Of a DNA stretch of 64,000 nucleotides, positions 39,352-62,048 are shown piece by piece; the stretch's first letter is position 1; each line of letters opens with the position of its first letter. A program made the position numbers and the translations under genes. A model generated the notes under the pieces. That model did no database searches and was not told the DNA's origin. It worked only from the letters and a program-made list of their open reading frames with translations. The DNA lies in contig NC_060028.1 in the NCBI RefSeq assembly GCF_021134715.1, positions 9,771,482 to 9,835,481 on the forward strand, in the 5' to 3' direction. The stretch is from Daphnia pulex. Its lineage: Eukaryota; Arthropoda; Branchiopoda; Diplostraca; Daphniidae.

Positions 39352-39856
39352 AACCCTTCGTTCGGCTATGAAGCATTTTGATCGAATTCTTGTTCGGGGG
39401 TTTTCCCGACGTGTTGTGAAGACGCGTGTTGATCCTGAACATTATTATGTTTGTCGTATTTCATTTTTCATTCTCAAAATAAAACTGTCATACCTTGACA
39501 TTTTATAGTTGCTTGTTGTGTTTGCGTTAAGTCGATAATTAGTTTTTAGTAGATTACTAAATATATAATTTTGAATTGTTTTGCGATCAACAGATTTGTA
39601 TTGATGCTATTAGTCAGAGTTTAATCGTTATAGCGAATTCGTATTCGAGTTTCCAACCAAATATAGGATACATTTCAAAGGCCGCTTTTTAAATACAAAA
39701 AAAACAAAACAGTTTTGAGCTCTTAAAACAAGTTTTTAAATCGAAATATTTTATATTTGGGCGACGTTGCAACTACAAATAGCAGACGAATTATTATGAT
39801 TTTCAATTTTCAGTGCGATCTGCGAAAACAGAATGCTGCGATCGAAACTTTTTTCG
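39352..39856. other. PDIA6 3' UTR and flank of the palindrome
   Basis: Single-copy in this window: its reverse complement is not found beyond the right end of the palindrome. It contains the PDIA6 poly(A) signal and otherwise AT-rich sequence without a gene. Confidence 0.6.
39478..39483 (+). terminator. PDIA6 polyadenylation signal (AATAAA)
   Basis: A canonical AATAAA lies 127 bp downstream of the PDIA6 stop codon, followed by a T/GT-rich stretch (from about 39,500), the usual arrangement for cleavage and polyadenylation. Confidence 0.7.
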
Positions 39857-40253
39857 CGAGTCGCAATCAAATTGTTACTTTGTACGTTTCCTTTTTCTAA
39901 CGCTAGAAGACTTCATCAGTCAGTTTCAGCTACTTTGCACATCTCTGTATAAATAATTCCACCAACAAAGCTCACTTGTTAATTTTTCGATAATTGCTTT
40001 ATTTATCTACTTAATCTATTTCACGGAGATGACGAATATTGGTTTATCTTCCGTCTTGAGTGTCTGACTTTTATAGTGTCCATGGATGATAATAAGGGCT
40101 GTCACTAGGTGGCCAAATATTTCAGTGTGTTTAGGGATTGAACTATTTAGCTCTAGTGTGTAGAGGGATGAAAGGGGGCGCACTTAAGGTTGGGACGACA
40201 TTCCCGCATCGCATTCCGTCCGTTTTATTCAACCGTGACGCTGGCAGATATTG

Positions 40254-40259
40254 GTAAGT
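40254..40259 (+). other. splice-donor-like site of a possible non-coding transcript
   Basis: A GTAAGT follows a G/C-richer stretch (40,150-40,253) resembling a first exon. Acceptor-like sites lie at 41,400 and 42,599 (tttcag). No protein is encoded by the implied exons, so an inward-transcribed non-coding RNA is conceivable. The mirror copy is at about 61,612-61,617. Confidence 0.25.
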
Positions 40260-41118
40260 ACTATGGTTTGAGTACTTCTTTTCTGAAATTTATCAAGAAA
40301 GGTAATTCCTGCGTGAATTTTTTAAGATTCTAAGATGAAAATATTTTGTGTGGTAAATCTACGGGCTTCATGTTCTTTAATTTATCCTTGGTCATGTTGC
40401 CATGTGATTTGCTGTACATTTTCCTAAAACGTCTCTTGTTGCATGTTGCACGTTTCGTCACATGTAGAATAACTAAACAAAAGTACAAGTAAAAGTGCTG
40501 ATTAGCTCAAAAATTCTAAGACTGTTTCTGAATTGAAATTCCTTGATTGGTTTCTGGTTGTAATTGAGTTTTATTTTTCAATGAGCAGCCTTATGGAGTT
40601 TGAGCTTCTTCATGTGTTGCGTGCACGTTATCACCTACTCGTCACGAAGATGTGTCTTAAAGTGTTCTACCATATTGAAAGACAAATGAGAAGCAAAGAG
40701 GAAATCAGGAAAGGTAAAAAGTTACTTTTGAGCTGAATCATGTAACATTTTATTCTTGATTGTTGGTAGATAGGTGACATTATTTATTGCTTCCATGACA
40801 GCTTTTCTGAAAATTTGTCAGTTTGAACCGATCAGTGGGTTAGCATTTTGCTTGAATTAATTTATGGTTTGTAACACACATTCTTTGTTTAGAATTTACT
40901 CGAGATTGACATTATATTTTTTATAGAGATAAATGTGACAAATGCTTGTTTTTACATAAGAAAGTTTTTGTGAAAAATCTTTATCAGCTAATAAGAGAGA
41001 TTTAGACTTTTTATGGAAACAGATTTATTAAAATCTGGAAATGTTCTTGGTTTATTTAAGTCCTTTTGGTTTGTAGGATTTCTTGGTCAGTTTGGTGTTT
41101 GAGCTGTTAATGGTGTTG

Positions 41119-42770
41119 TCTGGTGTGGATCTTGCAGTCATTTTCCATCTGAGAGATTCCCTGAAATGGAACTCGTGCAAACTTGCAGTTGGACATCATA
41201 CTTCTACGTCTTATGGTTGTGTTGATGTAGTGTTGCACTAATGTGCAAGAGTCGATGCAGTCTGATGAATATCGAAAATTATTATTTCGGCTGCATTTTG
41301 TCGATCTGTCGTCTCTTGCTACCTGTACGCACGCTGAGGTAATGCTTGAATAGTTAAATTTAATTATCAACTTGAAACTAAATTTCTTTTCTCGTTTCAG
41401 TTCAATCGTTCGCCACCACTCTTCAGACTAGATCCATCGGTGAAACGGAGGAGAGGCTGCTGAGATTCAAGACTGATAAATCATTTAGATTAAGACAAAT
41501 TACAAAAGCATATCTATTCTCCCTGTTCCCTAAGTAAATAGTGTGTCAGCTGTTAGTTACTCGTGTGAAAACTAGGAGTGTTCTTATCGAAAGGAAAGTT
41601 GCAGAGTCTTTTTCGCATAAAATGGCGGTGACCATTGGGGAATTTTTTTTGTATCTCGTGCAGAAACACTTCAGAGCTAGTAAAGTAATTTTGTTGATAA
41701 GTTTCCCTGCAATAATGCAACAGGTTTTATTAGTTGATGTTTAGGTCAGAGACAGAGATCCCTTTGCTTAACTGTTGCAGAAATTGAGAACATAACAAAG
41801 TCTGAGCTTCATGTATGCCTTATATGGCTGCCGTATCATTAATATGGTTTTGTTGCAGTCAGTTGGTGAAAGGTGTGATCGGGCGTCAAGTTGAGCTGCA
41901 GCTGTTGCATGCAGTTTATCAAGTTGGTGTTATCTGAATTCTGAAGTGTCACTGCAGGAAGACTTCTTGAATTGGTAATTATATTAATATTATTGGTTGT
42001 ATTGGCAAGTCTTCTGTTTTTTTTTTGTTTTTTTAAATGTTGTATTCAACTGACAAGTCTAAATTTATGTGATGTCGAAAATTACGAATCAAACTAGAAA
42101 AAAATTTCTCAATTAGTATTACCAAGTTTTTACAACATTGGAAGTAGTTTTACAGAATTATTTCCTGGTATCATTTTTTATTATTAATTTTAAATGAAGT
42201 AAATTTTATCATTGGTATCCTTTTTCACATTTCAAAATGTTAGTGGTTCATTAATGTTCTTTTGCTGTGTAGGAGTTGTGGTTGGTATGATGTTATGGTG
42301 TTGCTGTTTGGTGTAAAGTGGTTTTGCAGCCCCTTTCCAGTCGAGAGATGCTCTGAAATGTAGCTTGTGCAGACTTGCAGTTTAACATCACACTTAAATG
42401 TGTCATTTGCCTATGTTGGTGTTCATACAGTATATGCTGTGTTGAAAAGTTGGGTTAAATAGTCAATGTTGCCTGATGGCTGTCGGTCTTGTGTTATCGG
42501 CTGCATTTCGTCGATATGTCGTCTCTTGCTACCTGTACCGGCTTTGAGTGATGTTTCGTTCAGTTATTGACTATTAATTAAATCTATTCTTTTTTTCAGT
42601 TGAATCGTTTGCTGCCGTTCCATGGACTTGATCCATTGGTAACACTGACTGAGGAGAATTTGCTGAAATTCAAGACTCGTCAATAAATTATGTAGATGCT
42701 GTAGATAAATTACAAGTACATATCTGGGCTCCGTTCTTCAGTGGCCCAGTTTCCCTAAATAACCACTAAG
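41119..42770 (+). repeat. diverged tandem duplication of a ~0.45-kb unit (left arm)
   Basis: Unit 1 (about 41,119-41,540) and unit 2 (about 42,293-42,770) share, in order, 'ttgcag', 'gagagat', 'gcagacttgcagtt'-like, 'cggctgcatttYgtcgat' and 'gtcgtctcttgctacctgta' blocks. Both also share a 'ttcagttSaatcgtt' acceptor-like site and an ending of 'ccctaaRtaa'. The second unit is the more diverged. The mirror units are at about 58,129-58,606 and 59,360-59,781. No conserved reading frame is seen. Confidence 0.65.
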
Positions 42771-43048
42771 GCACTAACCAACGCCCGCCGATGGCCACTC
42801 ACTCGCTGCCACAACCAGGAGGAAAGGAGATGTCTGGTCGAACGGGGACTTGCGAGGCGCATGATTCGATGAAATCTGTTGGAGGGTCATGAGTCTAAGC
42901 CGGAAGCCTACTAATATGATGATGCATTGCTTTCATAATAACTGCTTCTTCGCTCTTTTTCCGGTTTCTCTTAACCACAGCCGGGTAATCCTCCCTGGTA
43001 GAGTCAGTCGGGCAGTGTCTCCCCCTGCTTGACTGGCTGCAGTTTTTA

Positions 43049-43202
43049 CCGGACGGTTTGTTTAATAAATAAAACAAGTATAAAAAACCATATAATGTTT
43101 TCATTTTATAAATTGTTATTAATTAATTAAATATAAATAGGTAACAACTTGATTATTAACAAGCATATTTATGTAACTTTGTTTATTAAACAGACCGTCC
43201 GA
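43049..43202. mobile_element. 154-bp MITE-like element flanked by TA (left arm)
   Basis: Terminal inverted repeats of about 24 bp start CCGGACGGTTTGTTTAATAA on the left and, on the opposite strand at the right end, TCGGACGGTCTGTTTAATAA. The element is flanked by TA on both sides and has an AT-rich core. The size, structure and TA duplication fit a Tc1/mariner-type non-autonomous DNA transposon. It occurs at the mirror position in the right arm, so it predates the palindrome or was copied with it. Confidence 0.7.
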
Positions 43203-43961
43203 TACAAACTCTTAGTTAGTACTATTACTCAAAAACTGATTCTCTTGAATCAGCAGATTCGAGTGTTTATAGCGCCGTCAAGGTAGATATTTCTGAATGG
43301 TACCCGTCTTGTCAACTGCTAATAATTCGTGTTCTTGGTTTGACAGAAGCTGTGTTTTGTGTGTTGATCGTCTCCACCATGCACGCGGTATTCAAGACCA
43401 GCAACGTCTTGATCAAGAAGAAGAAAAGAACGGAGAAGCAAAGAACGACGATGTAACTACTAAATAGCGGGGTGGGTACCGCTAAATTCATTCTTAGTTG
43501 AATGTCGAATCGCTAATAGCATTGTTGGTTATGGTAGAACAGTTTTCCGCAGTTTTCCACACTGGTACGCTGTATGACGTCGAGCAATGCCAATAATGGA
43601 AGTGCTCTTTGAAGAACTGAGCGTCTAGATCTTCTTCAGTCAGATGAAGCTAACGGATTCGGAAATCGTCGAAGAAGCAGAGGACATCACAGCTGAAAAC
43701 AAACGTGAGTCAAACTCCTGTGGTTAAGTTTTGCAGCTACTCTCAAAATATTTTGTCTTGTTTGCTCGTGTTGATTGAGACTGCTTTTAAATTGTCGGTA
43801 AATTCGTTCGACATTGACTGTGTGCGACCTCTATATTTCAGCTGCTTCTCAGCAAACAAAAGAACAACAAAAACGGGGGATAGGTGAGAGATGGCGCTCA
43901 GGTGGGCGGACCTTTCCCTTAGACACATCAGATCTCTTTTCGCTCTCGTTGTGCAAACATC

Positions 43962-44753
43962 ATGTCGGATCCCGAACAGTCAAGCGATTCTAGCTCAAAT
44001 TCTAGTAGTTCAGGCTCCGACTCATCAAGAAGAGGAGGCGTAAAGAAATTTCGTCTCTCAAGTGAAAAGTCAGCTAGTTTGGCCGACTGGGTCGTATCGG
44101 GTTTAGATGACACTCGAGCGAAAAGTGCTAGAGAGGCCTTTAGACCCAAGCTAAAGAAGAACGCCGACCTGCTGATCAACCCCAATCTAGATGATGCATT
44201 CTACATCCGGCTGAAGGCAGTTAAGTCATCTTCGGCAGCCAAGGTCAACATCGACCCAATCGAGAAAATCTACAGAAACCAAACCTTCAAGATCCTTGAC
44301 TTAGTCAAGCCCATCATGTTTCTAGCAAGTCGGCTCAAGAAAAAGAAGAAATCCCGAGCCGACGCCAAGGCGGTCAAAACAGCTCTGAAGCTCTGGGCGG
44401 TGGTGTACCACGACATCACGAACGCGCGACGCCGCAACATTCTGGCCCAAATCTACCCGCAGAATATTGGACTGCTAGACGACAAAGCTGTCCTGCCAAC
44501 GGGTGGAGAACACCTCTTCGGTCCGAAGTTCACCCAGGCCCTGGTCGAGCAAGTGAAAACTCTGAACGCTCTCGAAAACGCGGGAGCCCCTCGCGCGCCC
44601 GGATCTAAAGGTGGTCATGATCAACGCCAATCGAATCGCGATTTCAGCCACCCCCCTTCATCTTCAGGCGGTCGCTATTCCAATTTTAAAGGATCTCGGT
44701 ATGTCCAATCTATTCTCCTTTCCTTTTATGGGTTTTTTCTCTTGGACGCATAG
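43962..44753 (+). pseudogene. gag-like frame of the DIRS-like fossil
   Basis: An open frame of about 263 residues begins just inside the left terminal repeat. It has a Ser/Asp-rich start, a helical middle section and a Gly/Ser/Asn-rich basic end. The position and composition fit the first gene of DIRS-group elements, but I see no diagnostic motif. It is part of a broken element and is not a host gene. Confidence 0.6.
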
Positions 44754-45967
44754 CGCGTTTTTATGTTAAATTGTCAAGACCGGCTTTCGATCGGTGGAAT
44801 TTATCAACGGTGGCCCCATATCTACAACTAAATTCTATTTGTGATCCCGTCCAATTATTTGGGAGCGGGTTGGCTCACCAAGCTGAACTTGATTGACTCA
44901 TACTTGTCGGTCTCAATTTTTTCCTATTTTTGAAGGCCTTTTGAAATTCCTTCAGTTTAAATGGGGGCGTTTTTCTTCGAATTCGTGCCCCCCCTCCTTC
45001 GTTTTAAACTCAATGTGATGGGCGTTCACCAGACTAGTAAGGGGAGTGGTAACCTTCCTGCGGAAGAACGACCTTCGCCTCGAACTTTATTGGGATGAGA
45101 TTTTAATCTCGGCGCACGGGTATAGCATTGCCCCAGCACACTTCCGTGCTCTTCGGATCCCCTTAGATTCCAAACCGGATGGTCATCTGATCAGGTCAAG
45201 AGAGCAATTTACGCTTTCGGCACGTTTACAAGAGGCTCGTAGAAGTCCTTCTTGGTTGGTTTCAAAGGCAGATTTTACATCTGGCCGTCCGCTCATTTTT
45301 CCCGACGACGGATTTGTCCAGGGCGTCGGATGCATCCTTTTTAAGAAGGGAGGGGGGCAGTATGAAACGAATAAGGACTAGGAAACTAGCCGAGATTGCC
45401 CTAGCAACACCACTGACCTCCCGTCCCTGATAGAGCTAGCAACGGAAATTCCGCTCCTTCTCTTCCCATCCAAGTAGGCTGATCTCCCCGTTGGGGGAGG
45501 GTCATCCATTGACAGGAACGAATCCATCTGTTTTATCGCTCGGTGGTTCTCCGGAGTTGTCTGGAAGAACGAACCTTTCCGAAGGAAATTATCGAGCTCA
45601 TACTGGGAGCAATTCGATCGAATACGCACCCTGCATACCAGTCCGCTGAGGTCGCTGGGAGCAGTTGGTGTAAGCAACGGAACCACAACTCTCTGTTGTC
45701 TGGCGTCAAGGAGGTATTAGCTTTCCTTGTTAATTTTCATTCCAGCAAGAGCTGCAGCACGGTGGGAAGGAACCCTTCGACAACTATTCGTATGAAAGAG
45801 TATTGACGCCCTTTTAGACGAAATGCCGATTTGGTGGCGCATCCATGTTACACAGTCCAGCAGGGCTCCCACGAGCTCCAATTTTCAATCAGGCGTTGGT
45901 AACTGTCGACCATCAGGGGGTCTCATCTTATATCTTATTATATCTGATTATATCTTGCTTTAAAGAC

Positions 45968-46073
45968 ACAGTCAATGTCGAACGAATTTACCGACAATTT
46001 GTAAATTGTTCGAGCGAGCTTTAGCTCGCGATGAGCAATTTGGATTGTTGGGGGAATGGAGTGAAGACATTGA
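45968..46073. repeat. internal complementary region of the DIRS-like element
   Basis: Reads as the reverse complement of the left terminus, then AATTT, then the reverse complement of the right-terminal extension. This is the expected signature of a circle junction used as template in DIRS replication. It distinguishes the element from LTR retrotransposons and from simple foldback elements. Confidence 0.8.
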
Positions 46074-47574
46074 CTGTCTTCTAACCACCCATCCCGCCCA
46101 CTTCATTCCCGTTATCATTATGTTATTTAACTTGAATTAGGTGCAGCATCCGATTATTGACGGCCCACTAATTCCTCTTTCCTTCTATCTTTTTGCTAGA
46201 TACAACAATGATAGCCGCAGATCCAATTTCGACCGTGGCTCACCCAATCCCGCCAATAAAGGCGATCAGAACATCAACAACAAATAGGCCATTTGAACCA
46301 TGGATCACCTTACACATTTTCCGTTAAGCCAGATCCACAGTTTGTTTTTGCTTCCAATTCTGATGTGTCTAAGGGAAAGGTCCGCCCACCTGAGCGCCAT
46401 CTCTCACCTATCCCCCGTTTTTGTTGTTCTTTTGTTTGCTGAGAAGCAGCTGAAATATAGAGGTCGCACACAGTCAATGTCTTCACTCCATTCCCCCAAC
46501 AATCCAAATTGCTCATCGCGAGCTAAAGCTCGCTCGAACAATTTACAAATTATCTATCAGGGAAGCCCTAATAAGAGGTCCAAGAGAAATTTATTCGGGT
46601 CAACTGATACCATGCCACGTACTAAATCGTTAATGGTTTTCAGGTAAAAAATAACCATGGGAATATGGGGTCGCATAAATAGATGTCACTGGTGGAAAAT
46701 AAGAAGGTGATATGGTATTTTTCTTTTCTACTGTCTGATTTTTAAAGATTTGGTGAGGAACATCCAATCTGTCGATCGCGGTCGCTAACCAATTGTTAGA
46801 AAAACAGCACCAATAATGGTAAGAAGGTGTGCTGTGAAGTGGCGTGATAATTTTAATCATGGACATTCAGGTTTCATTTCGTGATTTGTTAGGTCGAACT
46901 CGGATGTGCTTTATTCGAGATTTTAACACAAATTGCATTTTATACATAAAAAAATTTATCAGGAAGCTACAATGTTACAGCATTACCCGTACTATGGCTC
47001 GTCCCGGTTTGTATTGCTTTGTATAATCTTTAGTTGAACGCTAAGTATATTATTAGAGGCTAGCTAAGAGAATTTGGCTAGATCTTTACAAGATTAGTGA
47101 ATGTGATTTTTTAAAGAAATTGTGCCTGTTGCACATCGATATTATTGGCCTTGATTCTTAAAGGTGGCTTGTTTAAACTTTCGACGGTTAAAGTTAAACT
47201 CTATTTAATAAAGAGATAATATAACATTTAGCTAATGATCTTGCATTCTTGACTAAATATTTTCAGGCAACTTTTGAAGTTTTTGTGGGCACTGATTTGC
47301 AGAGTGCTCGTGACCAACAGATAAAATGGCCCAATCCATATTGCAAATTTGCAAGCTGTCTTCCAAAACCATCCAAAACCAAGGAATTTCTATTTGCAAG
47401 GTAATTATTTCAACCAGCAATGTTTCTTTTAATTACTGTGGTAATAATTCAAGATGATGAAGTCTAATTAGGTAGAAAACCTTTCTGAAAAGTTTAGGAG
47501 CCATTGTTAATTTCAATTGGTGTAAAGTGAGTTTTAAGCCATAATCATTTGGTATTAATTTTTATATTGGTTGT

Positions 47575-47985
47575 TGTAGAACCATTCCAATCCCCAGCAA
47601 CGTAAACCTGCAGAAGGAAAGGCACGTAAAACTTGTCATGCAGTGGTGTAGAGGTTGGGTGAGAACGGGATGTGTTACATAACCATTTGGTATTCATTTT
47701 GAATTTTGATATTGGTTGTTGTAGACCCACCCCCAGCAACGACAACCTGCTAAAGGAAAGGCACGTAAAACTTGTCAAAAAGAGGTTGGGTGAGAACGGG
47801 ATGTGTTACTGTTACATAACCATTTTCATTTTGATATTCGTTGTTGTAGACCCATCCCCAGAAACTTCAACCTGCAAAAGGAAAGGGCAGTCCGCATGTC
47901 CTTCACATTCGAAGGTCACGGAGATCATCATTACATAAAACGTGCCATGCAGTGATGTAGAGGTTGGGTGAGAACGGGACGTGTT
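47575..47985 (+). repeat. three tandem units of ~110-140 bp (left arm)
   Basis: Each unit runs 'ttgttgtaga-cc', 'ccccag-aac', 'aacctgc', 'aaaggaaag', then 'gaggttgggtgagaacggga'. Units start near 47,575, 47,720 and 47,845. They differ by substitutions and indels. No stable frame is seen. The mirror copy is at about 55,672-56,082. Confidence 0.75.
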
Positions 47986-48048
47986 TCATCATTTTCAAGC
48001 AGCTACAATAGCCGCAAGGCTTAAGAGGTGAGGGTGATCAAAAAATCG

Positions 48049-48085
48049 TATAAAAGGAGAGAGAAAAGGCGAAGGTAAATCAGTC
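48049..48085 (+). promoter_or_regulatory. TATA box plus initiator of a tyrosine-rich gene relic (left arm)
   Basis: TATAAAAG at 48,049-48,056 is followed about 33 bp later by TCAGTC at 48,080-48,085, the usual arthropod TATA-to-Inr spacing. It precedes the first exon of the tyrosine-rich repeat gene copy 1. The promoter looks intact although the gene behind it is broken. A mirror copy lies at 55,572-55,608 on the minus strand. Confidence 0.6.
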
Positions 48086-49074
48086 GAGGGAGCATCTCCG
48101 ACACGGCAACAACTGCAGCGCTCTGTCTGTCAGTTCACATCCATAGGTAAATATTCTGTCTTTTACATAGAGTTTGTTATCAATCCTTCTTTTGATTATG
48201 TATGCTTGTTATTATGTAATATTTATGTTAAAATTTATAATTGTTTAGCAAACTATGGCGTAGTGCTGCTGTTGTGTGTTGAATCTTTGATGGCTGGGTC
48301 GACCACTGGTGTACCGATGTTTTCTTGGTATGGCGGATACCAAACCGCAACGCCGCCGCCTTACTACCCAAAAGCAACTTACGCAACGACCAGTTACTGC
48401 ACCGAGGTCTTCCAAGTACTACACCACTAAAGCACCGGACTTGAATAGCACAACTTACGCTGCCCCGAGCCACTACACTGACGCCCTGAAGTATTACTCT
48501 GCCCCGAGTTACTACACCACCAAGGCGACGGAGGATGACTACGAATGCTGCCCCAATCCCCATCCTCCGAGGCTCATACACCGAGGCTCCTAAGTATAAC
48601 TCTGTTCTCATCTACTTACTGCACCGATTTTCCTAAATACTACTCTGTTCCCAGCTGCTACACCGAGGCTCGCGCCGATTACTACACCGAAGCTTGAAAG
48701 TACTACTCTGCCCCGATCTACACAACCATAACTGACACGGCCAATTATTACGCTGTCCCGACTTGCTGCACAGAAGCTGCTCTTTCGTACTACGTTGAAA
48801 AGAAATACTACACTGATGCTCCAGTTCACTACACCACAGCCCCCAAGTACTACACCGGAGAAGCCGCCTACAACGTATGCTGCCTAGTTTACTACACCGA
48901 GGCTCCAAGTACTACATCACTAAGGCACCGGAATTCTGCACGTCTATGTATGCTACCCCTGCCTACTACGCCGAGGCCCCGCATTACTACAACACTGAAG
49001 CGCTCAAGTACTACACTACAACCTGCGTTTCCCCGAGCTACTACACCCACGTCCCTAAGTATTACTGTGCGTAA
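48080..49074 (+). pseudogene. tyrosine-rich repeat protein gene, copy 1, left arm (broken)
   Basis: The two-exon structure is still visible: exon 1 to 48,146 (donor GTAAAT), exon 2 from 48,249. It encodes a signal-like NYGVVLLLC stretch, then repeats such as YYTTKAPDL, YAAPSHYTDALKYY and YYTEA, ending KYYCA. The expected start ATGG at the end of exon 1 is ATAG here. The repeats run through at least three reading frames, and one frame carries an internal stop. The family resembles secreted Tyr-rich proteins abundant in Daphnia (established only from memory); eggshell or cuticle roles have been guessed for such proteins. No product is expected. Confidence 0.75.
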
Positions 49075-49158
49075 AAGGAATCTTCAAAAAAAAAGAAGTG
49101 CCCGAACTGCAGTGCCCTATCTGTCACCAACTGCTTTCCTCGTAACCGATTCGCAATT

Positions 49159-50120
49159 ATGGGTAAATATTCTTATTTTTATATGAGTTTTGCATCAATT
49201 ATATATTTTTTAATTTTTTAATATGCCTGTTAATATTTAATATTAATGTTTCAATTTATTTACTGTTTAGTGAACTATTGCGTCGTGCTCCTGTTGGGTG
49301 TTGTAGCTGTCGTTGATGGCTGGGTCGACTGCTGTTGCAGCGATGTCTCCTTGGTATGGCGGAAACCAAACCGTAACGCCGCCGCCTTCCTACTCAACTT
49401 ACGCAACGACCAGTTCCTGCACCGATGTCTTCAAGTACTACACCACCAAACCACGGGAGTTTTATACCACAACTTACGCTGCCCCGAGCCACTACACTGA
49501 TGCCCTGAAGTATTACTCTGCCCTGAGTTACTACACCATCTAGGCGACGGATGGCACCACATGACTACGTATACTGCCTATCCTACTACACCGAGGCTTC
49601 AAAGTATAACTCTGTTCTCAGCTACTTATTGCACCGATTTTCCTAAATACTATTCTGTTCCCAGCTGCTTTACCGAGGCTCCTGCTGATGTCTCCACCAA
49701 GACGGTCGAATACTACACTGAAGCGACAAAGTACTACTCTGCCCCGATCTACATAACCACAACTGAGGCGGCCAAGTATTACGCAGTCCCGACTTGCTAC
49801 ACCAAAGCTGCTCTTTCGTGCTGCGTCGAACAGAGATACTACACTGATGCTCCAGTCTACTACACCACGACCTACGCTACACCTAGCTACAACACCGCAG
49901 ACCCCAAGTTCTACACCGAAGAAGGCGTCCATACACAACTACGTACGCTGCCTAGCTTACTACATCGAGGAATTTAAGTATTACTCCAAACTACTACCAA
50001 ACTGAGGTTCATATGTATTACATCAGCAATTCTCCCCACCTTGTCACCACTATTTACGCTGCTCCGAGCTGTATACCGAAGTTCTGAAATATTTTTTGGA
50101 TGTGTTGAAAGATTGTTGAA
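49159..50120 (+). pseudogene. tyrosine-rich repeat protein gene, copy 2, left arm (broken)
   Basis: Exon 1 ends ATGG|GTAAAT at 49,162. Exon 2 starts at 49,271 and restores a signal peptide, MVNYCVVLLLGVVAVVDG. After that the frame is lost: the repeat units (YYTTKPREFYTTTYAAPSHY, then KYYSAPIYITTTEAAKYY) lie in other frames with stops between them. A likely end is near 50,120 and an AATAAA at 50,262 could be its poly(A) signal. It is a tandem paralogue of copy 1, 85 bp downstream. Start and signal peptide are kept here, so it decayed independently of copy 1. Confidence 0.75.
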
Positions 50121-50994
50121 ATACAAGATTGATTGATAAATCACAATTGCATGTCTATTTTCTCTTAAGTACCTTTCCTCCTGCTGATCATTGCATGATG
50201 TGAGAACACATTTTTGAGTGCTGTGTAAACTTACAAAAATAATCGATCTTGCAAAATACAACAATAAAAATTCAAACTCCTGTTTTACATTTCATAAACA
50301 TATCAACATCTTTTTTTTCTATCATTAAAATTCAAGTCCAACAAACAATATTTTTCTAAAAATTCAAGTCCATTTTTCTAAAAATTCAAAGTCCACCACC
50401 TATTATGCTAAGTCCAGACTTTTGTTTTTGAAAAAAATTTTAAAAAAATTCCCCTTACACAAAGTTTTAAAAAAATTATCGCGAAAAAATTTAACTCGAA
50501 TATTTCATTGTATGCAAAATTTATTTTTATAATATCCATACATCATATACATTTTTCCTGTGGCCCCCAGGGGGGGGGGGGGCCTGTCGCTTTCTCTACC
50601 GCGATAATAACATGATGCAAGTTATATGCAAGTTATTATTTGTTTGGTGCAGAAAGCTTGTTTTATCTAGCAGTTCTCGACTGTTTCAAACCTGACATTG
50701 ATCAGGTTGCCTCAGTCGTATACTGCATGATTGAATGAAAACTCAAAAGACAACAGATCAAACTATTTGAAGTCACAACACAAAATATCACTGGCAGAGC
50801 AATTTCATATGGCATGGATGAAAACGACAACACAAAATTTTTGAAGTCAGGAACCCAGATGGAACAGCTCAGCTACAACAGCACAGCAACTTCTGGATTA
50901 CACTGCAATCGCATTCAGCATACAATGGTTCAATCTCTCTTTGTCACACCTTTCACCATTTGGCTGCAACAAGGTAACCACCAGCATGTGCTTT

Positions 50995-51579
50995 ACCTGT
51001 TTAAGAAAAGAAAATTATTTTCGAGAAACACAACTGTGTACACATTATGACAAAAGAATACAAAGAGTGACAGAAAACTACGCAGTCCAACAGAAAAACT
51101 TTGATATCTGATTCAAAATTTCTATAGTTAACTAAATCTGTAGTACTTTTGCAAGACATTTGATCAAAATAATTACTTTTTACTGTTGAATGGGGTGAGA
51201 CGTAAGCCAAAGAACAGGCAGCGAGACACACGAGGCACGCCATTTCGGAAATGTACAGGCACTTCCCAAGTCTGAGTTGAATGATTTGACAAATTGGTTT
51301 CTACGTGCCAAATCACCTGTAAATTTTCACATCAACATTTTACATTCAATACCATTAGGAAATTAACAATAAATACCTTTTAATTTTCATCGTGAGAAAC
51401 GTCACAACCAACAACCCTTTTCTGCTGCGTCTTGGATCAAAATGGCCGCTAAACGTCCCTGAAGACACTCGCGCTACCTGGTGGACATCATACAGTTGGG
51501 GTGTCAGAGATGTCCAACAGATGTCATAGGCGTCGACGTTTTCATGTGATGGCGGATTGTTGTGTTGAGTGATTGTCAA
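50995..51579 (-). CDS. possible small spliced secreted-peptide gene near the palindrome centre (left arm copy)
   Basis: Mirror of the right-arm copy at 52,079-52,662. Exon 2 (about 51,316-51,177) holds an ATG at 51,243 followed by a signal-peptide-like stretch, MACLVCLAACSLAYVS. A leader exon with a GTATTT donor (51,376) and a 60-nt intron precede it. The downstream splice choice, and so the C-terminus, is unresolved: two donors give different endings of about 36 or 53 residues. No family is recognised. Coding status is uncertain. Confidence 0.3.
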
Positions 51580-51760
51580 AAGTTTTCCTATTTCTTCATG
51601 AAAATTACCGATGAATTCATCAGTAAATTCAAGTTTTTTTCTTTGAAACTTGTTTGTGATGTGATTTATTCCTTATGTGTGCTGGATCAAATTCAAAATT
51701 CCTCAATCTAACCTGTAGGAACGGGACAGGAAACAGTAGCATACAAATAGCCTAGCATCA

Positions 51761-51893
51761 CGGGACAGGAAATTGATTGATTGCAGGATTTGATAGATTG
51801 TATTTTCTCTCATAGGTAAAGCTACGAAAAATATCATATCATCTAGGCCATGGGTAATCTTCTGGTTTATTATATTAATAGAGTTTGTGGTAG
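51761..51893. other. 133-bp spacer at the palindrome centre
   Basis: Non-palindromic sequence between the two arms. Its first 12 bases (cgggacaggaaa) repeat a stretch of the adjacent left arm at 51,722-51,733. That gives a short direct repeat across the junction, as expected if the arm was formed by template switching. No gene or promoter is visible. Confidence 0.85.
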
Positions 51894-52078
51894 TGATGCT
51901 AGGCTATTTGTATGCTACTGTTTCCTGTCCCGTTCCTTCCCACAGGTTAGATTGAGGAATTTTGAATTTGATCCAGCACACATAAGGAATAAATCACATC
52001 ACAAACAAGTTTCAAAGAAAAAAACTTGAATTTACTGATGAATTCATCGGTAATTTTCATGAAGAAATAGGAAAACTT

Positions 52079-52700
52079 TTGACAATCACTCAACACAACA
52101 ATCCGCCATCACATGAAAACGTCGACGCCTATGACATCTGTTGGACATCTCTGACACCCCAACTGTATGATGTCCACCAGGTAGCGCGAGTGTCTTCAGG
52201 GACGTTTAGCGGCCATTTTGATCCAAGACGCAGCAGAAAAGGGTTGTTGGTTGTGACGTTTCTCACGATGAAAATTAAAAGGTATTTATTGTTAATTTCC
52301 TAATGGTATTGAATGTAAAATGTTGATGTGAAAATTTACAGGTGATTTGGCACGTAGAAACCAATTTGTCAAATCATTCAACTCAGACTTGGGAAGTGCC
52401 TGTACATTTCCGAAATGGCGTGCCTCGTGTGTCTCGCTGCCTGTTCTTTGGCTTACGTCTCACCCCATTCAACAGTAAAAAGTAATTATTTTGATCAAAT
52501 GTCTTGCAAAAGTACTACAGATTTAGTTAACTATAGAAATTTTGAATCAGATATCAAAGTTTTTCTGTTGGACTGCGTAGTTTTCTGTCACTCTTTGTAT
52601 TCTTTTGTCATAATGTGTACACAGTTGTGTTTCTCGAAAATAATTTTCTTTTCTTAAACAGGTAAAGCACATGCTGGTGGTTACCTTGTTGCAGCCAAAT
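52079..52700 (+). CDS. possible small spliced secreted-peptide gene near the palindrome centre (right arm copy)
   Basis: Leader exon to 52,281, intron 52,282-52,341 (GTATTT...TTTACAG), exon 2 52,342-52,481 with an ATG at 52,415 (ccgaaATGG), then an acceptor (TTAAACAG) before 52,662. Exon 2 encodes a signal-like MACLVCLAACSLAYVS. Joining at 52,481 gives a 36-residue peptide ending GGYLVAAKW. Joining at the alternative GT at 52,475 gives about 53 residues with two extra Cys. The frame in exon 2 also stays open to 52,657 without splicing. Intron-like boundaries make transcription plausible, but protein coding is not shown. The two arm copies are identical over this frame. Confidence 0.3.
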
Positions 52701-53536
52701 GGTGAAAGGTGTGACAAAGAGAGATTGAACCATTGTATGCTGAATGCGATTGCAGTGTAATCCAGAAGTTGCTGTGCTGTTGTAGCTGAGCTGTTCCATC
52801 TGGGTTCCTGACTTCAAAAATTTTGTGTTGTCGTTTTCATCCATGCCATATGAAATTGCTCTGCCAGTGATATTTTGTGTTGTGACTTCAAATAGTTTGA
52901 TCTGTTGTCTTTTGAGTTTTCATTCAATCATGCAGTATACGACTGAGGCAACCTGATCAATGTCAGGTTTGAAACAGTCGAGAACTGCTAGATAAAACAA
53001 GCTTTCTGCACCAAACAAATAATAACTTGCATATAACTTGCATCATGTTATTATCGCGGTAGAGAAAGCGACAGGCCCCCCCCCCCCTGGGGGCCACAGG
53101 AAAAATGTATATGATGTATGGATATTATAAAAATAAATTTTGCATACAATGAAATATTCGAGTTAAATTTTTTCGCGATAATTTTTTTAAAACTTTGTGT
53201 AAGGGGAATTTTTTTAAAATTTTTTTCAAAAACAAAAGTCTGGACTTAGCATAATAGGTGGTGGACTTTGAATTTTTAGAAAAATGGACTTGAATTTTTA
53301 GAAAAATATTGTTTGTTGGACTTGAATTTTAATGATAGAAAAAAAAGATGTTGATATGTTTATGAAATGTAAAACAGGAGTTTGAATTTTTATTGTTGTA
53401 TTTTGCAAGATCGATTATTTTTGTAAGTTTACACAGCACTCAAAAATGTGTTCTCACATCATGCAATGATCAGCAGGAGGAAAGGTACTTAAGAGAAAAT
53501 AGACATGCAATTGTGATTTATCAATCAATCTTGTAT

Positions 53537-54498
53537 TTCAACAATCTTTCAACACATCCAAAAAATATTTCAGAACTTCGGTATACAGCTCGGAGCAGCG
53601 TAAATAGTGGTGACAAGGTGGGGAGAATTGCTGATGTAATACATATGAACCTCAGTTTGGTAGTAGTTTGGAGTAATACTTAAATTCCTCGATGTAGTAA
53701 GCTAGGCAGCGTACGTAGTTGTGTATGGACGCCTTCTTCGGTGTAGAACTTGGGGTCTGCGGTGTTGTAGCTAGGTGTAGCGTAGGTCGTGGTGTAGTAG
53801 ACTGGAGCATCAGTGTAGTATCTCTGTTCGACGCAGCACGAAAGAGCAGCTTTGGTGTAGCAAGTCGGGACTGCGTAATACTTGGCCGCCTCAGTTGTGG
53901 TTATGTAGATCGGGGCAGAGTAGTACTTTGTCGCTTCAGTGTAGTATTCGACCGTCTTGGTGGAGACATCAGCAGGAGCCTCGGTAAAGCAGCTGGGAAC
54001 AGAATAGTATTTAGGAAAATCGGTGCAATAAGTAGCTGAGAACAGAGTTATACTTTGAAGCCTCGGTGTAGTAGGATAGGCAGTATACGTAGTCATGTGG
54101 TGCCATCCGTCGCCTAGATGGTGTAGTAACTCAGGGCAGAGTAATACTTCAGGGCATCAGTGTAGTGGCTCGGGGCAGCGTAAGTTGTGGTATAAAACTC
54201 CCGTGGTTTGGTGGTGTAGTACTTGAAGACATCGGTGCAGGAACTGGTCGTTGCGTAAGTTGAGTAGGAAGGCGGCGGCGTTACGGTTTGGTTTCCGCCA
54301 TACCAAGGAGACATCGCTGCAACAGCAGTCGACCCAGCCATCAACGACAGCTACAACACCCAACAGGAGCACGACGCAATAGTTCACTAAACAGTAAATA
54401 AATTGAAACATTAATATTAAATATTAACAGGCATATTAAAAAATTAAAAAATATATAATTGATGCAAAACTCATATAAAAATAAGAATATTTACCCAT
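53537..54498 (-). pseudogene. tyrosine-rich repeat protein gene, copy 2, right arm (broken)
   Basis: Mirror of the 49,159-50,120 relic, with the same signal peptide, frame losses and repeat units. The translated fragments of the two arms are identical where compared. The damage was therefore already present before the arms formed, or has been shared by gene conversion. Confidence 0.75.
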
Positions 54499-54582
54499 AA
54501 TTGCGAATCGGTTACGAGGAAAGCAGTTGGTGACAGATAGGGCACTGCAGTTCGGGCACTTCTTTTTTTTTGAAGATTCCTT

Positions 54583-55577
54583 TTACGCACAGTAATACTT
54601 AGGGACGTGGGTGTAGTAGCTCGGGGAAACGCAGGTTGTAGTGTAGTACTTGAGCGCTTCAGTGTTGTAGTAATGCGGGGCCTCGGCGTAGTAGGCAGGG
54701 GTAGCATACATAGACGTGCAGAATTCCGGTGCCTTAGTGATGTAGTACTTGGAGCCTCGGTGTAGTAAACTAGGCAGCATACGTTGTAGGCGGCTTCTCC
54801 GGTGTAGTACTTGGGGGCTGTGGTGTAGTGAACTGGAGCATCAGTGTAGTATTTCTTTTCAACGTAGTACGAAAGAGCAGCTTCTGTGCAGCAAGTCGGG
54901 ACAGCGTAATAATTGGCCGTGTCAGTTATGGTTGTGTAGATCGGGGCAGAGTAGTACTTTCAAGCTTCGGTGTAGTAATCGGCGCGAGCCTCGGTGTAGC
55001 AGCTGGGAACAGAGTAGTATTTAGGAAAATCGGTGCAGTAAGTAGATGAGAACAGAGTTATACTTAGGAGCCTCGGTGTATGAGCCTCGGAGGATGGGGA
55101 TTGGGGCAGCATTCGTAGTCATCCTCCGTCGCCTTGGTGGTGTAGTAACTCGGGGCAGAGTAATACTTCAGGGCGTCAGTGTAGTGGCTCGGGGCAGCGT
55201 AAGTTGTGCTATTCAAGTCCGGTGCTTTAGTGGTGTAGTACTTGGAAGACCTCGGTGCAGTAACTGGTCGTTGCGTAAGTTGCTTTTGGGTAGTAAGGCG
55301 GCGGCGTTGCGGTTTGGTATCCGCCATACCAAGAAAACATCGGTACACCAGTGGTCGACCCAGCCATCAAAGATTCAACACACAACAGCAGCACTACGCC
55401 ATAGTTTGCTAAACAATTATAAATTTTAACATAAATATTACATAATAACAAGCATACATAATCAAAAGAAGGATTGATAACAAACTCTATGTAAAAGACA
55501 GAATATTTACCTATGGATGTGAACTGACAGACAGAGCGCTGCAGTTGTTGCCGTGTCGGAGATGCTCCCTCGACTGA
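54583..55577 (-). pseudogene. tyrosine-rich repeat protein gene, copy 1, right arm (broken)
   Basis: Mirror of the 48,080-49,074 relic. It has the same ATA in place of the start codon and the same frame changes, behind the same TATA/Inr pair (55,572-55,608 on this strand). The four relics form two head-to-head pairs pointing at the palindrome centre. Confidence 0.75.
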
Positions 55578-55608
55578 TTTACCTTCGCCTTTTCTCTCTC
55601 CTTTTATA
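55572..55608 (-). promoter_or_regulatory. TATA box plus initiator of a tyrosine-rich gene relic (right arm)
   Basis: Mirror of 48,049-48,085: TATAAAAG followed about 33 bp later by TCAGTC on the minus strand, just upstream of the right-arm copy 1 relic. Confidence 0.6.
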
Positions 55609-55671
55609 CGATTTTTTGATCACCCTCACCTCTTAAGCCTTGCGGCTATTGTAGCTGCTTGAAAATGATGA

Positions 55672-56082
55672 AACACGTCCCGTTCTCACCCAACCTCTAC
55701 ATCACTGCATGGCACGTTTTATGTAATGATGATCTCCGTGACCTTCGAATGTGAAGGACATGCGGACTGCCCTTTCCTTTTGCAGGTTGAAGTTTCTGGG
55801 GATGGGTCTACAACAACGAATATCAAAATGAAAATGGTTATGTAACAGTAACACATCCCGTTCTCACCCAACCTCTTTTTGACAAGTTTTACGTGCCTTT
55901 CCTTTAGCAGGTTGTCGTTGCTGGGGGTGGGTCTACAACAACCAATATCAAAATTCAAAATGAATACCAAATGGTTATGTAACACATCCCGTTCTCACCC
56001 AACCTCTACACCACTGCATGACAAGTTTTACGTGCCTTTCCTTCTGCAGGTTTACGTTGCTGGGGATTGGAATGGTTCTACA
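55672..56082 (-). repeat. three tandem units of ~110-140 bp (right arm)
   Basis: Mirror of the tandem array at 47,575-47,985, with the same unit order and the 'gaggttgggtgagaacggga' core. Confidence 0.75.
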
Positions 56083-57696
56083 ACAACCAATATAAAAATT
56101 AATACCAAATGATTATGGCTTAAAACTCACTTTACACCAATTGAAATTAACAATGGCTCCTAAACTTTTCAGAAAGGTTTTCTACCTAATTAGACTTCAT
56201 CATCTTGAATTATTACCACAGTAATTAAAAGAAACATTGCTGGTTGAAATAATTACCTTGCAAATAGAAATTCCTTGGTTTTGGATGGTTTTGGAAGACA
56301 GCTTGCAAATTTGCAATATGGATTGGGCCATTTTATCTGTTGGTCACGAGCACTCTGCAAATCAGTGCCAACAAAAACTTCAAAAGTTGCCTGAAAATAT
56401 TTAGTCAAGAATGCAAGATCATTAGCTAAATGTTATATTATCTCTTTATTAAATAGAGTTTAACTTTAACCGTCGAAAGTTTAAACAAGCCACCTTTAAG
56501 AATCAAGGCCAATAATATCGATGTGCAACAGGCACAATTTCTTTAAAAAATCACATTCACTAATCTTGTAAAGATCTAGCCAAATTCTCTTAGCTAGCCT
56601 CTAATAATATACTTAGCGTTCAACTAAAGATTATACAAAGCAATACAAACCGGGACGAGCCATAGTACGGGTAATGCTGTAACATTGTAGCTTCCTGATA
56701 AATTTTTTTATGTATAAAATGCAATTTGTGTTAAAATCTCGAATAAAGCACATCCGAGTTCGACCTAACAAATCACGAAATGAAACCTGAATGTCCATGA
56801 TTAAAATTATCACGCCACTTCACAGCACACCTTCTTACCATTATTGGTGCTGTTTTTCTAACAATTGGTTAGCGACCGCGATCGACAGATTGGATGTTCC
56901 TCACCAAATCTTTAAAAATCAGACAGTAGAAAAGAAAAATACCATATCACCTTCTTATTTTCCACCAGTGACATCTATTTATGCGACCCCATATTCCCAT
57001 GGTTATTTTTTACCTGAAAACCATTAACGATTTAGTACGTGGCATGGTATCAGTTGACCCGAATAAATTTCTCTTGGACCTCTTATTAGGGCTTCCCTGA
57101 TAGATAATTTAAAAGCAGTCTCAATCAACACGAGCAAACAAGACAAAATATTTTGAGAGTAGCTGCAAAACTTAACCACAGGAGTTTGACTCACGTTTGT
57201 TTTCAGCTGTGATGTCCTCTGCTTCTTCGACGATTTCCGAATCCGTTAGCTTCATCTGACTGAAGAAGATCTAGACGCTCAGTTCTTCAAAGAGCACTTC
57301 CATTATTGGCATTGCTCGACGTCATACAGCGTACCAGTGTGGAAAACTGCGGAAAACTGTTCTACCATAACCAACAATGCTATTAGCGATTCGACATTCA
57401 ACTAAGAATGAATTTAGCGGTACCCACCCCGCTATTTAGTAGTTACATCGTCGTTCTTTGCTTCTCCGTTCTTTTCTTCTTCTTGATCAAGACGTTGCTG
57501 GTCTTGAATACCGCGTGCATGGTGGAGACGATCAACACACAAAACACAGCTTCTGTCAAACCAAGAACACGAATTATTAGCAGTTGACAAGACGGGTACC
57601 ATTCAGAAATATCTACCTTGACGGCGCTATAAACACTCGAATCTGCTGATTCAAGAGAATCAGTTTTTGAGTAATAGTACTAACTAAGAGTTTGTA

Positions 57697-57850
57697 TCGG
57701 ACGGTCTGTTTAATAAACAAAGTTACATAAATATGCTTGTTAATAATCAAGTTGTTACCTATTTATATTTAATTAATTAATAACAATTTATAAAATGAAA
57801 ACATTATATGGTTTTTTATACTTGTTTTATTTATTAAACAAACCGTCCGG
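57697..57850. mobile_element. 154-bp MITE-like element flanked by TA (right arm)
   Basis: Mirror copy of the element at 43,049-43,202, with the same TCGGACGG...CCGTCCGG ends and flanking TA. Being present in both arms at the matching position, it predates the duplication. Confidence 0.7.
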
Positions 57851-58128
57851 TAAAAACTGCAGCCAGTCAAGCAGGGGGAGACACTGCCCGACTGACTCTA
57901 CCAGGGAGGATTACCCGGCTGTGGTTAAGAGAAACCGGAAAAAGAGCGAAGAAGCAGTTATTATGAAAGCAATGCATCATCATATTAGTAGGCTTCCGGC
58001 TTAGACTCATGACCCTCCAACAGATTTCATCGAATCATGCGCCTCGCAAGTCCCCGTTCGACCAGACATCTCCCTTCCTCCTGGTTGTGGCAGCGAGTGA
58101 GTGGCCATCGGCGGGCGTTGGTTAGTGC

Positions 58129-59781
58129 CTTAGTGGTTATTTAGGGAAACTGGGCCACTGAAGAACGGAGCCCAGATATGTACTTGTAATTTATCTACAG
58201 CATCTACATAATTTATTGACGAGTCTTGAATTTCAGCAAATTCTCCTCAGTCAGTGTTACCAATGGATCAAGTCCATGGAACGGCAGCAAACGATTCAAC
58301 TGAAAAAAAGAATAGATTTAATTAATAGTCAATAACTGAACGAAACATCACTCAAAGCCGGTACAGGTAGCAAGAGACGACATATCGACGAAATGCAGCC
58401 GATAACACAAGACCGACAGCCATCAGGCAACATTGACTATTTAACCCAACTTTTCAACACAGCATATACTGTATGAACACCAACATAGGCAAATGACACA
58501 TTTAAGTGTGATGTTAAACTGCAAGTCTGCACAAGCTACATTTCAGAGCATCTCTCGACTGGAAAGGGGCTGCAAAACCACTTTACACCAAACAGCAACA
58601 CCATAACATCATACCAACCACAACTCCTACACAGCAAAAGAACATTAATGAACCACTAACATTTTGAAATGTGAAAAAGGATACCAATGATAAAATTTAC
58701 TTCATTTAAAATTAATAATAAAAAATGATACCAGGAAATAATTCTGTAAAACTACTTCCAATGTTGTAAAAACTTGGTAATACTAATTGAGAAATTTTTT
58801 TCTAGTTTGATTCGTAATTTTCGACATCACATAAATTTAGACTTGTCAGTTGAATACAACATTTAAAAAAACAAAAAAAAAAACAGAAGACTTGCCAATA
58901 CAACCAATAATATTAATATAATTACCAATTCAAGAAGTCTTCCTGCAGTGACACTTCAGAATTCAGATAACACCAACTTGATAAACTGCATGCAACAGCT
59001 GCAGCTCAACTTGACGCCCGATCACACCTTTCACCAACTGACTGCAACAAAACCATATTAATGATACGGCAGCCATATAAGGCATACATGAAGCTCAGAC
59101 TTTGTTATGTTCTCAATTTCTGCAACAGTTAAGCAAAGGGATCTCTGTCTCTGACCTAAACATCAACTAATAAAACCTGTTGCATTATTGCAGGGAAACT
59201 TATCAACAAAATTACTTTACTAGCTCTGAAGTGTTTCTGCACGAGATACAAAAAAAATTCCCCAATGGTCACCGCCATTTTATGCGAAAAAGACTCTGCA
59301 ACTTTCCTTTCGATAAGAACACTCCTAGTTTTCACACGAGTAACTAACAGCTGACACACTATTTACTTAGGGAACAGGGAGAATAGATATGCTTTTGTAA
59401 TTTGTCTTAATCTAAATGATTTATCAGTCTTGAATCTCAGCAGCCTCTCCTCCGTTTCACCGATGGATCTAGTCTGAAGAGTGGTGGCGAACGATTGAAC
59501 TGAAACGAGAAAAGAAATTTAGTTTCAAGTTGATAATTAAATTTAACTATTCAAGCATTACCTCAGCGTGCGTACAGGTAGCAAGAGACGACAGATCGAC
59601 AAAATGCAGCCGAAATAATAATTTTCGATATTCATCAGACTGCATCGACTCTTGCACATTAGTGCAACACTACATCAACACAACCATAAGACGTAGAAGT
59701 ATGATGTCCAACTGCAAGTTTGCACGAGTTCCATTTCAGGGAATCTCTCAGATGGAAAATGACTGCAAGATCCACACCAGA
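58129..59781 (-). repeat. diverged tandem duplication of a ~0.45-kb unit (right arm)
   Basis: Mirror of the pair at 41,119-42,770. Units lie at about 58,129-58,606 and 59,360-59,781 and share the 'gtcgtctcttgctacctgta' block (here on the minus strand). Confidence 0.65.
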
Positions 59782-60243
59782 CAACACCATTAACAGCTCA
59801 AACACCAAACTGACCAAGAAATCCTACAAACCAAAAGGACTTAAATAAACCAAGAACATTTCCAGATTTTAATAAATCTGTTTCCATAAAAAGTCTAAAT
59901 CTCTCTTATTAGCTGATAAAGATTTTTCACAAAAACTTTCTTATGTAAAAACAAGCATTTGTCACATTTATCTCTATAAAAAATATAATGTCAATCTCGA
60001 GTAAATTCTAAACAAAGAATGTGTGTTACAAACCATAAATTAATTCAAGCAAAATGCTAACCCACTGATCGGTTCAAACTGACAAATTTTCAGAAAAGCT
60101 GTCATGGAAGCAATAAATAATGTCACCTATCTACCAACAATCAAGAATAAAATGTTACATGATTCAGCTCAAAAGTAACTTTTTACCTTTCCTGATTTCC
60201 TCTTTGCTTCTCATTTGTCTTTCAATATGGTAGAACACTTTAA

Positions 60244-61210
60244 CAAGCGATCTCCCACTCAACCGGACCGAAATGGTGGGGGTACTTTTCGGATCGTAAT
60301 CCGGAAAAGAACTTTAAAAATCCGGACTAGGTCTATTCTGTTCAGAATCGCAAGGCGATTCCAACGGAATTAAGTCCGGATTTTTATCTTTTCCCGTTCA
60401 CGAGATAATCACGGTTGAAAATCGTGAAATATCACGAAAACCCAAAGTCTCCCCGTTCGACTACATCGCTTTTAGCCGTATATTCGGCTTGTAAAAAAAA
60501 ACTAATTGATACAAAATGTAGCTCTTTCATCCCTCTTTCAGAATCCAAAAGGATTTTTTATAATTCTTTGAGATGTTTGAGATATCACGATTTTCGTGAT
60601 ACCCCCATTTCGACAAATTTTTCAGGCATTTCATTCGGCGTTGCCGATTGCCGTATATGTGACTTCGCCCCCACTCCTTCGCTTTTTCCATTGTTTCCTA
60701 TGTATCAAGTCCCATCTGTATCGATATACAAGGCCTTGATACATAGGAAACAGGGAAAAAGCGAAGGAGTGGACAGGAAAGGGGGCGAAAAGCACATATA
60801 CGGCAATCGGCAACGCCGAATGAAATGCCTGAAAAATTTGTCGAAATGGGGGTATCACAAAAATCGTGATATCTCAAACATCTCAAAGAATTATAAAAAA
60901 TCCTTTTGGATTCTGAAAGAGGGATGAAAGAGCTACATTTTGTATCAATTAGTTTTTTTTTACAAGCCGAATATACGGCTAAAAGCGATGTAGTCGAACG
61001 GGGAGACTTTGGGTTTTCGTGATATTTCACGATTTTCAACCGTGATTATCTCGTGAACGGGAAAAGATAAAAATCCGGACTTAATTCCGTTGGAATCGCC
61101 TTGCGATTCTGAACAGAATAGACCTAGTCCGGATTTTTAAAGTTCTTTTCCGGATTACGATCCGAAAAGTACCCCCACCATTTCGGTCCGGTTGAGTGGG
61201 AGATCGCTTG
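60244..61210. mobile_element. 967-bp self-complementary TTAA element (foldback/MITE), right arm only
   Basis: The element is a near-perfect inverted repeat: arms of about 460 bp around a ~40-bp loop near 60,710-60,745. The ends read CAAGCGATCTCCCACTC on both strands and are flanked by TTAA at 60,240-60,243 and 61,211-61,214. The left arm has the empty site with a single TTAA (near 40,658). The 971-bp length difference between arms equals the element plus one TTAA. There is no transposase, so it is non-autonomous. TTAA targeting fits piggyBac-, Kolobok- or Sola3-type transposases. The ends lack the CCC start usual for piggyBac, so the superfamily is open. The open frames inside are palindromic shadows. 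Confidence 0.88.
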
Positions 61211-62048
61211 TTAAGACACATCTTCGTGACGAGTAGGTGATAACGTGCACGCAACACATGAAGAAGCTCAAACTCCATAAGGCTGCTCATTGAAAAATAA
61301 AACTCAATTACAACCAGAAACCAATCAAGGAATTTCAATTCAGAAACAGTCTTAGAATTTTTGAGCTAATCAGCACTTTTACTTGTACTTTTGTTTAGTT
61401 ATTCTACATGTGACGAAACGTGCAACATGCAACAAGAGACGTTTTAGGAAAATGTACAGCAAATCACATGGCAACATGACCAAGGATAAATTAAAGAACA
61501 TGAAGCCCGTAGATTTACCACACAAAATATTTTCATCTTAGAATCTTAAAAAATTCACGCAGGAATTACCTTTCTTGATAAATTTCAGAAAAGAAGTACT
61601 CAAACCATAGTACTTACCAATATCTGCCAGCGTCACGGTTGAATAAAACGGACGGAATGCGATGCGGGAATGTCGTCCCAACCTTAAGTGCGCCCCCTTT
61701 CATCCCTCTACACACTAGAGCTAAATAGTTCAATCCCTAAACACACTGAAATATTTGGCCACCTAGTGACAGCCCATCCATGGACACTATAAAAGTCAGA
61801 CACTCAAGACGGAAGATAAACCAATATTCGTCATCTCCGTGAAATAGATTAAGTAGATAAATAAAGCAATTATCGAAAAATTAACAAGTGAGCTTTGTTG
61901 GTGGAATTATTTATACAGAGATGTTCAAAGTAGCTGAAACTGACTTATTTGACAGCTGAAAATGACCAAAGTCTATGATAAAGTCTTCTAGCGTTAGAAA
62001 AAATTAACGAAAAATAACAATTCGTTTGCGAGTTTGCGACTCGCAAAG

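Follow-up and report, generated by a model that had tools for sequence, protein, structure and literature searches.

A long palindrome with near-identical arms and diverged outer edges in the Daphnia pulex genome

A long inverted repeat, or palindrome, of about 22 kb lies between a PDIA6-like and a DNAJC30-like gene in a 64,000-nucleotide stretch of the Daphnia pulex genome (assembly GCF_021134715.1, contig NC_060028.1, positions 9,771,482 to 9,835,481), which is called the window here and is numbered from its first letter. The arms are almost identical in the interior and clearly diverged at the outermost edge, and this contrast confines the options to recent copying across an inverted repeat that was older or already in place. 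Our tentative reading, which we hold with slightly less than even confidence, is that this is a genuine long inverted repeat whose arms have recently and almost completely been homogenised by arm-to-arm gene conversion.

Self-alignment of the window and base-by-base alignment both place the arms in inverted orientation, facing each other across a short spacer:

39857-51761, + strand: left palindrome arm, holding a DIRS-like insertion
51762-51892, no strand: spacer of 131 bp; the second copy of a 13-bp direct repeat (ACGGGACAGGAAA at 51721 and 51760) runs into its first bases
51893-62048, - strand: right palindrome arm, holding a TTAA element

The palindrome is present in the sequence, and a match of such size is far above chance. 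An earlier note on this DNA had the coordinates of the two facing arms right but gave the spacer as 133 bp. The inverted matches in the self-alignment reach 99.885% (46547-51761 with 51893-57110), 99.904% (40657-43796 with 57103-60243) and 98.66% (39915-40660 with 61211-61948). For the inner arms (left 39939-51761 without its insertion, aligned base by base), it turned out that only 2 substitutions occur in 9,052 aligned sites (0.022%), together with 4 small indels. The substitutions are located at left 47287/right 56370 and left 42825/right 58074, and the indels comprise 8 bp at 40096, 4 bp at 51716, 1 bp in a C run at 50582 and 1 bp in an A run at 42026. Since collapse or polishing may have raised it, the corresponding figure of 99.98% should be read as a ceiling for arm identity. 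When the left arm minus its insertion was searched together with the spacer at E up to 1e-3, nothing in the window matched except the palindrome itself, and the spacer aligned to its own reverse complement gives a best score of 20, near the background median of 22 (background segments being longer).

The near-identity stops abruptly at the outer edges:

39857-39918, + strand: diverged outer end of the left arm, beside the PDIA6-like gene; clearly homologous to 61976-62048, with divergence far above that of the inner arm
61976-62048, - strand: outer end of the right arm, likewise diverged and lying upstream of the DNAJC30-like gene; adjoins 31 bp (61945-61975) that the left arm lacks

The earlier note had counted only two substitutions, which is correct for the inner arms, while the outer 82 bp (39857-39938; right side 61925-62048) add 9 more and 3 internal indels of 31, 2 and 8 bp. 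An extra 5-bp gap at 39857 is an alignment-end effect and was not counted as an internal indel. The outer ends are homologous, with a local alignment score of 63 against a maximum of 37 among 385 background pairs; these were random pairs of similar length from window positions 1-38,614, of which 400 were drawn and those less than 700 bp apart were dropped. The outer inverted repeat includes a 22-bp identical run, and below E 0.03 its ends match nothing else in the window. The 31-bp segment found at the right outer edge only looks by eye like the adjacent sequence, as a templated insertion or a local duplication gives.

The difference between the interior (2 of 9,052 sites) and the outer end (9 of 80) is large (Fisher P about 1e-17). 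It holds when the boundary is shifted (3 interior changes against 8 of 62 outer sites; Fisher P 5e-16) and in a test on 100-bp bins that is independent of the chosen boundary (P 3e-12). One molecular clock fails for interior and edge together, so the near-identity does not reflect the uniform age of a single duplication. At the D. obtusa mutation rate (PMC12926508), the interior would be about 45,000 generations old (5,500-163,000) and the outer end, for which 8 of 62 sites were counted, would date back about 26 million; with the slower rate of D. galeata (PMC8975155) the two ages become about 148,000 and 87 million generations. All these figures presuppose a Daphnia-like host and neutral change. 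Identity that is higher inside than at the edges of homology is what we expect of conversion, and a single copying event fits it as well. The earlier note, which missed this contrast, had left youth, conversion and an assembly error open as sources of the identity; conversion, a single event or a residual assembly effect could each still lie behind it.

Each arm carries one insertion that the other lacks, as the earlier note had pointed out:

43794-46551, + strand: short DIRS-like retrotransposon, left arm only; the exact ends are ambiguous by up to 5 bp, both edges having AAATT
60244-61210, no strand: nearly self-complementary DNA transposon of 967 bp, confined to the right arm and flanked by a duplicated TTAA target (60240-60243 and 61211-61214)

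Both resemble ordinary transposons, and the opposite arm keeps a clean empty site in each case; since these sites are intact, both insertions came later than the last copying of that stretch. The 2.76-kb left insertion appears DIRS-like by its ends. It has identical 123-bp inverted terminal repeats (43810-43932 and 46359-46481) and an internal complementary region (45966-46077) that matches both termini, and the clean empty site in the right arm keeps a single AAATT common to both edges of the element, which indicates no target-site duplication. DIRS1-like retrotransposons share this layout of inverted terminal repeats, an internal region matching and joining both ends, and no target duplication (PMC3266345). 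In D. pulex, 19 intact DIRS elements of 4.3-5.5 kb are described, with terminal repeats of 88-170 bp and a mean of 119 (PMC2996953). Unlike these, the insertion here is only 2.76 kb long, and no tyrosine recombinase or reverse transcriptase Pfam domain was recognised above cut-off in any of the 19 listed open reading frames (ORFs) overlapping it; it is therefore presumably a deleted copy. A protein search with its DIRS gag-like ORF found no relatives among viral contigs.

The TTAA element has a 351-bp perfect terminal inverted repeat, and its halves are alike in 468 of 495 columns. The left arm has one TTAA at the empty site. The combination of a TTAA target duplication and terminal inverted repeats is that of piggyBac-like transposons, and Pokey, a piggyBac element of Daphnia, likewise targets TTAA (PMC3849761). 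Other TTAA superfamilies are possible: the one ORF scanned (60409-60927) contained 0 Pfam families, and nothing found places the element in any superfamily. A 967-bp transposon which is itself almost one palindrome thus sits within an arm of the large palindrome.

The recognisable genes of the arms are a tandem pair of pseudogenes:

48298-49074, + strand: tyrosine-rich repeat pseudogene 1, left arm; mirror at about 54583-55359, - strand (limits read by eye)
49310-50005, + strand: tyrosine-rich repeat pseudogene 2, left arm; mirror at about 53652-54347, - strand (limits read by eye)

Pseudogene 1 contains frame switches and an in-frame stop that interrupts the repeats, and its mirror ORFs are identical. 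Pseudogene 2, a tandem copy about 77-81% identical to it, also has stops and frameshifts. The pair lies in the inner half of each arm, with the same damage on both sides and no difference in the alignment there. The earlier note's description of the arms as carrying mostly broken genes applies to these two genes; the rest of the arms gave nothing from Rfam and nothing above the curated Pfam cut-offs. None of the 54 left-arm ORFs of at least 62 aa matched a Pfam family above its curated cut-off, a survey that genes with short exons or non-coding genes would escape (scans at E up to 0.1, one batch at 0.01; weak matches below the cut-off were taken as chance). Rfam scans returned 0 families both for the window at the gathering threshold and for 39800-51900 with E allowed up to 1, and no tRNA was found. 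Besides, the one tyrosine-rich ORF queried in a protein search had no relatives among viral contigs, and the repeat string YYTEAP was not found in the open-access literature searched. The motif looks like that of Daphnia proteins, and the DIRS content also suits a cladoceran host. Since no host gene that can be recognised in the arms is intact, the palindrome is probably neutral, and such cargo offers no obvious gene function to explain the identity.

Further repeats are found within the arms. In the outer half, which has no recognised gene, 41039-41515 and 42235-42725 form an old internal duplication with 68% identity, possibly exons of a non-coding RNA. Degenerate tandem repeats with a period of about 125 bp lie at 47540-47989, just upstream of the tyrosine-rich pseudogenes, and are mirrored in the right arm.

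If the arms were homogenised by conversion, the inverted pair would be older than arm identity suggests. Arm-to-arm gene conversion would recently have overwritten the interior of an older inverted repeat, and the outermost ~80 bp would have escaped and kept their older divergence, because conversion near the end of homology is seldom completed; after homogenisation, one transposon would have entered each arm. Such a history explains an identical interior and a diverged edge with nothing added. A spacer of 131 bp should also limit cruciform extrusion and instability. That conversion, rather than one copying event, is the source of the contrast between interior and edge is what we infer, and we put it slightly ahead of a single fold-back event, the two being separable only with relatives. 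Several results weigh against conversion. The inner edge, at the 131-bp spacer, has no diverged homology, and the diverged end is only about 60-80 bp long, so that a single copying event ending in a pre-existing short inverted repeat fits equally. The 4 indels against 2 substitutions exceed the D. obtusa ratio (P 0.003; 0.07 minus the two homopolymer indels), and this excess could be a sign of errors in the assembly. Unique sequence is no more than 1 kb away from each of the 4 inner differences outside homopolymers (chance 0.074), a pattern that collapse or polishing would give; when all 6 inner differences are counted, 4 are so placed, and the chance of 4 or more is 0.38. The arms show no rise in GC (0.390, against 0.432 in window 1-39856); no GC bias is reported in the D. 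obtusa study (PMC12926508). The occurrence of two transposons beside two substitutions was dropped as an argument for conversion, being too rate-dependent given the transposon gain data of D. magna (PMC8594854).

The arms could also stem from one recent fold-back copying event, which we regard as possible but doubtful. A fork or broken end would have changed strands close to the spacer and copied the arm in the outward direction until it was captured at an older 60-bp inverted repeat flanking the locus, and ongoing conversion would be unneeded. In line with this, identity drops suddenly at the outer boundary, which coincides with a short inverted repeat holding the 22-bp identical run. The inner-edge direct repeat (51721-51733 and 51760-51772), which straddles the inner end of the left arm with a rough chance of 1.4e-4, is a footprint of the kind that template switching can leave, and short interrupted inverted repeats are known sites of palindromic junctions (PMC10766186); together they somewhat favour a fold-back event. 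Such an event, however, could only have worked if a diverged inverted repeat had already been present precisely at the two ends, and the outer ends match nothing else in the window at the threshold given above. Besides, the published model (PMC10766186) predicts an inverted triplication and repeats of 5-6 bp lying 40-80 bp apart, from which the geometry here differs. An assembly artefact, whether a chimeric join, two haplotypes placed head to head, or real arms with identity inflated by collapse or polishing, seems unlikely to us. The clustering of inner differences near unique anchors speaks for it with the two chance values given above, as do the 2 of 4 inner indels in homopolymers and the fact that the inference rests on assembled sequence. 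Against it stand the unlike flanks, a different transposon in each arm, outer ends that are diverged yet homologous, and the absence of any N in the window (0 bases). The earlier note's argument that flanks and insertions speak against a simple hairpin-read artefact gains from the transposon ends, the intact empty sites and the edge that passes into diverged homologous sequence, and we reject that artefact: flanks differ, insertions differ and edges are diverged. A heterozygous single-copy inversion misassembled as a palindrome is likewise rejected, because the two spacer junctions differ and the inner arm end therefore continues in two distinct ways.

A functional long hairpin RNA locus would give selection a reason to keep the arms alike: transcription across the centre would yield double-stranded RNA from the pseudogene copies, and small RNAs would act on intact family members. 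The pseudogenes are read toward the centre from both sides, and TATA-like and initiator-like sequences were seen by eye upstream of them, at about 48049-48085. Nevertheless, there is no Rfam match, several kb of arm are without recognisable genes, and pairing would be interrupted by one insertion in each arm, so we consider this locus type very improbable. Hardly any credence is given to the combined reading, in which a palindrome not known as sex-chromosomal, in a cyclically parthenogenetic arthropod, would be held by conversion despite its dead genes and would also produce a cross-centre hairpin RNA, from which small RNAs would arise to regulate tyrosine-rich repeat genes that are still intact. 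We also reject the idea that the whole palindrome is a single giant foldback transposon, since its arms contain pseudogenes and a transposase domain was not recognised (no systematic test for flank duplication was made).

The palindrome is flanked by unrelated genes:

38192-39351, + strand: last exons of a PDIA6-like gene, left outer flank
62552-63214, + strand: DNAJC30-like gene, right outer flank (open frame, stop to stop)

Both had been named in the earlier note and both are recognised here. The left gene has two thioredoxin stretches and a frame ending in KDEL. PDIA6 chains are among its solved-structure matches at about 1e-44, DNAJC10 and other protein disulfide isomerase chains score higher, and the Pfam model of the PDIA6 C-terminus matches below its cut-off. 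The one PDIA6-like exon queried in a protein search found no relatives among viral contigs, and a protein search of genome contigs hit 10 loci in bacterial metagenome-assembled genomes, 25-44% identical to the thioredoxin region of the query, which were not used. For the right gene, the best solved-structure match is WBSCR18, which we take to be DNAJC30.

We judge the palindrome a further case of a known kind. No description of it was found in titles or abstract openings, a search limited to open-access literature and weak evidence of absence. If confirmed by reads, it would offer a clean natural setting in which arm-to-arm conversion could be measured beyond the known sex-chromosome palindromes, with the near-identical interior, a measurable edge effect and one transposon per arm as marker as its assets. 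In cyclical parthenogens, where conversion between homologues is measured in mutation-accumulation lines, it could, again if confirmed, separate arm-to-arm conversion from that between homologues. Among parthenogenetic genomes, 10 of 23 screened had palindromes, in a study which cautioned that scaffolding can go wrong and which, for lack of annotation, did not include D. pulex (PMC7953838). Those of Adineta vaga and Folsomia candida are, like this one, inverted duplications on one chromosome of an invertebrate, but are defined by collinear gene blocks (PMC7953838). Inverted duplications by origin-dependent inverted-repeat amplification (ODIRA), fold-back or template switching share the palindromic junction, the short spacer and a short repeat at the junction (PMC10766186); here, in contrast, there is no triplication, the spacer of 131 bp exceeds 40-80 bp, and the outer end lies in a longer, diverged inverted repeat. 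Long inverted arms that are more than 99% identical around a unique spacer, a trait of conversion-maintained palindromes, are found here. Most Y palindromes have longer arms than this one, and they usually, though not by strict definition, carry intact genes. Unlike the mammalian Y and X palindromes, this one has pseudogenes in its arms, where no intact host gene was recognised. In common with them, the arms are long, inverted and at least 99.9% identical, and the interior divergence of 0.022% stands beside 0.021% in human and 0.028% in chimpanzee for Y palindromes under conversion (PMC3403216).

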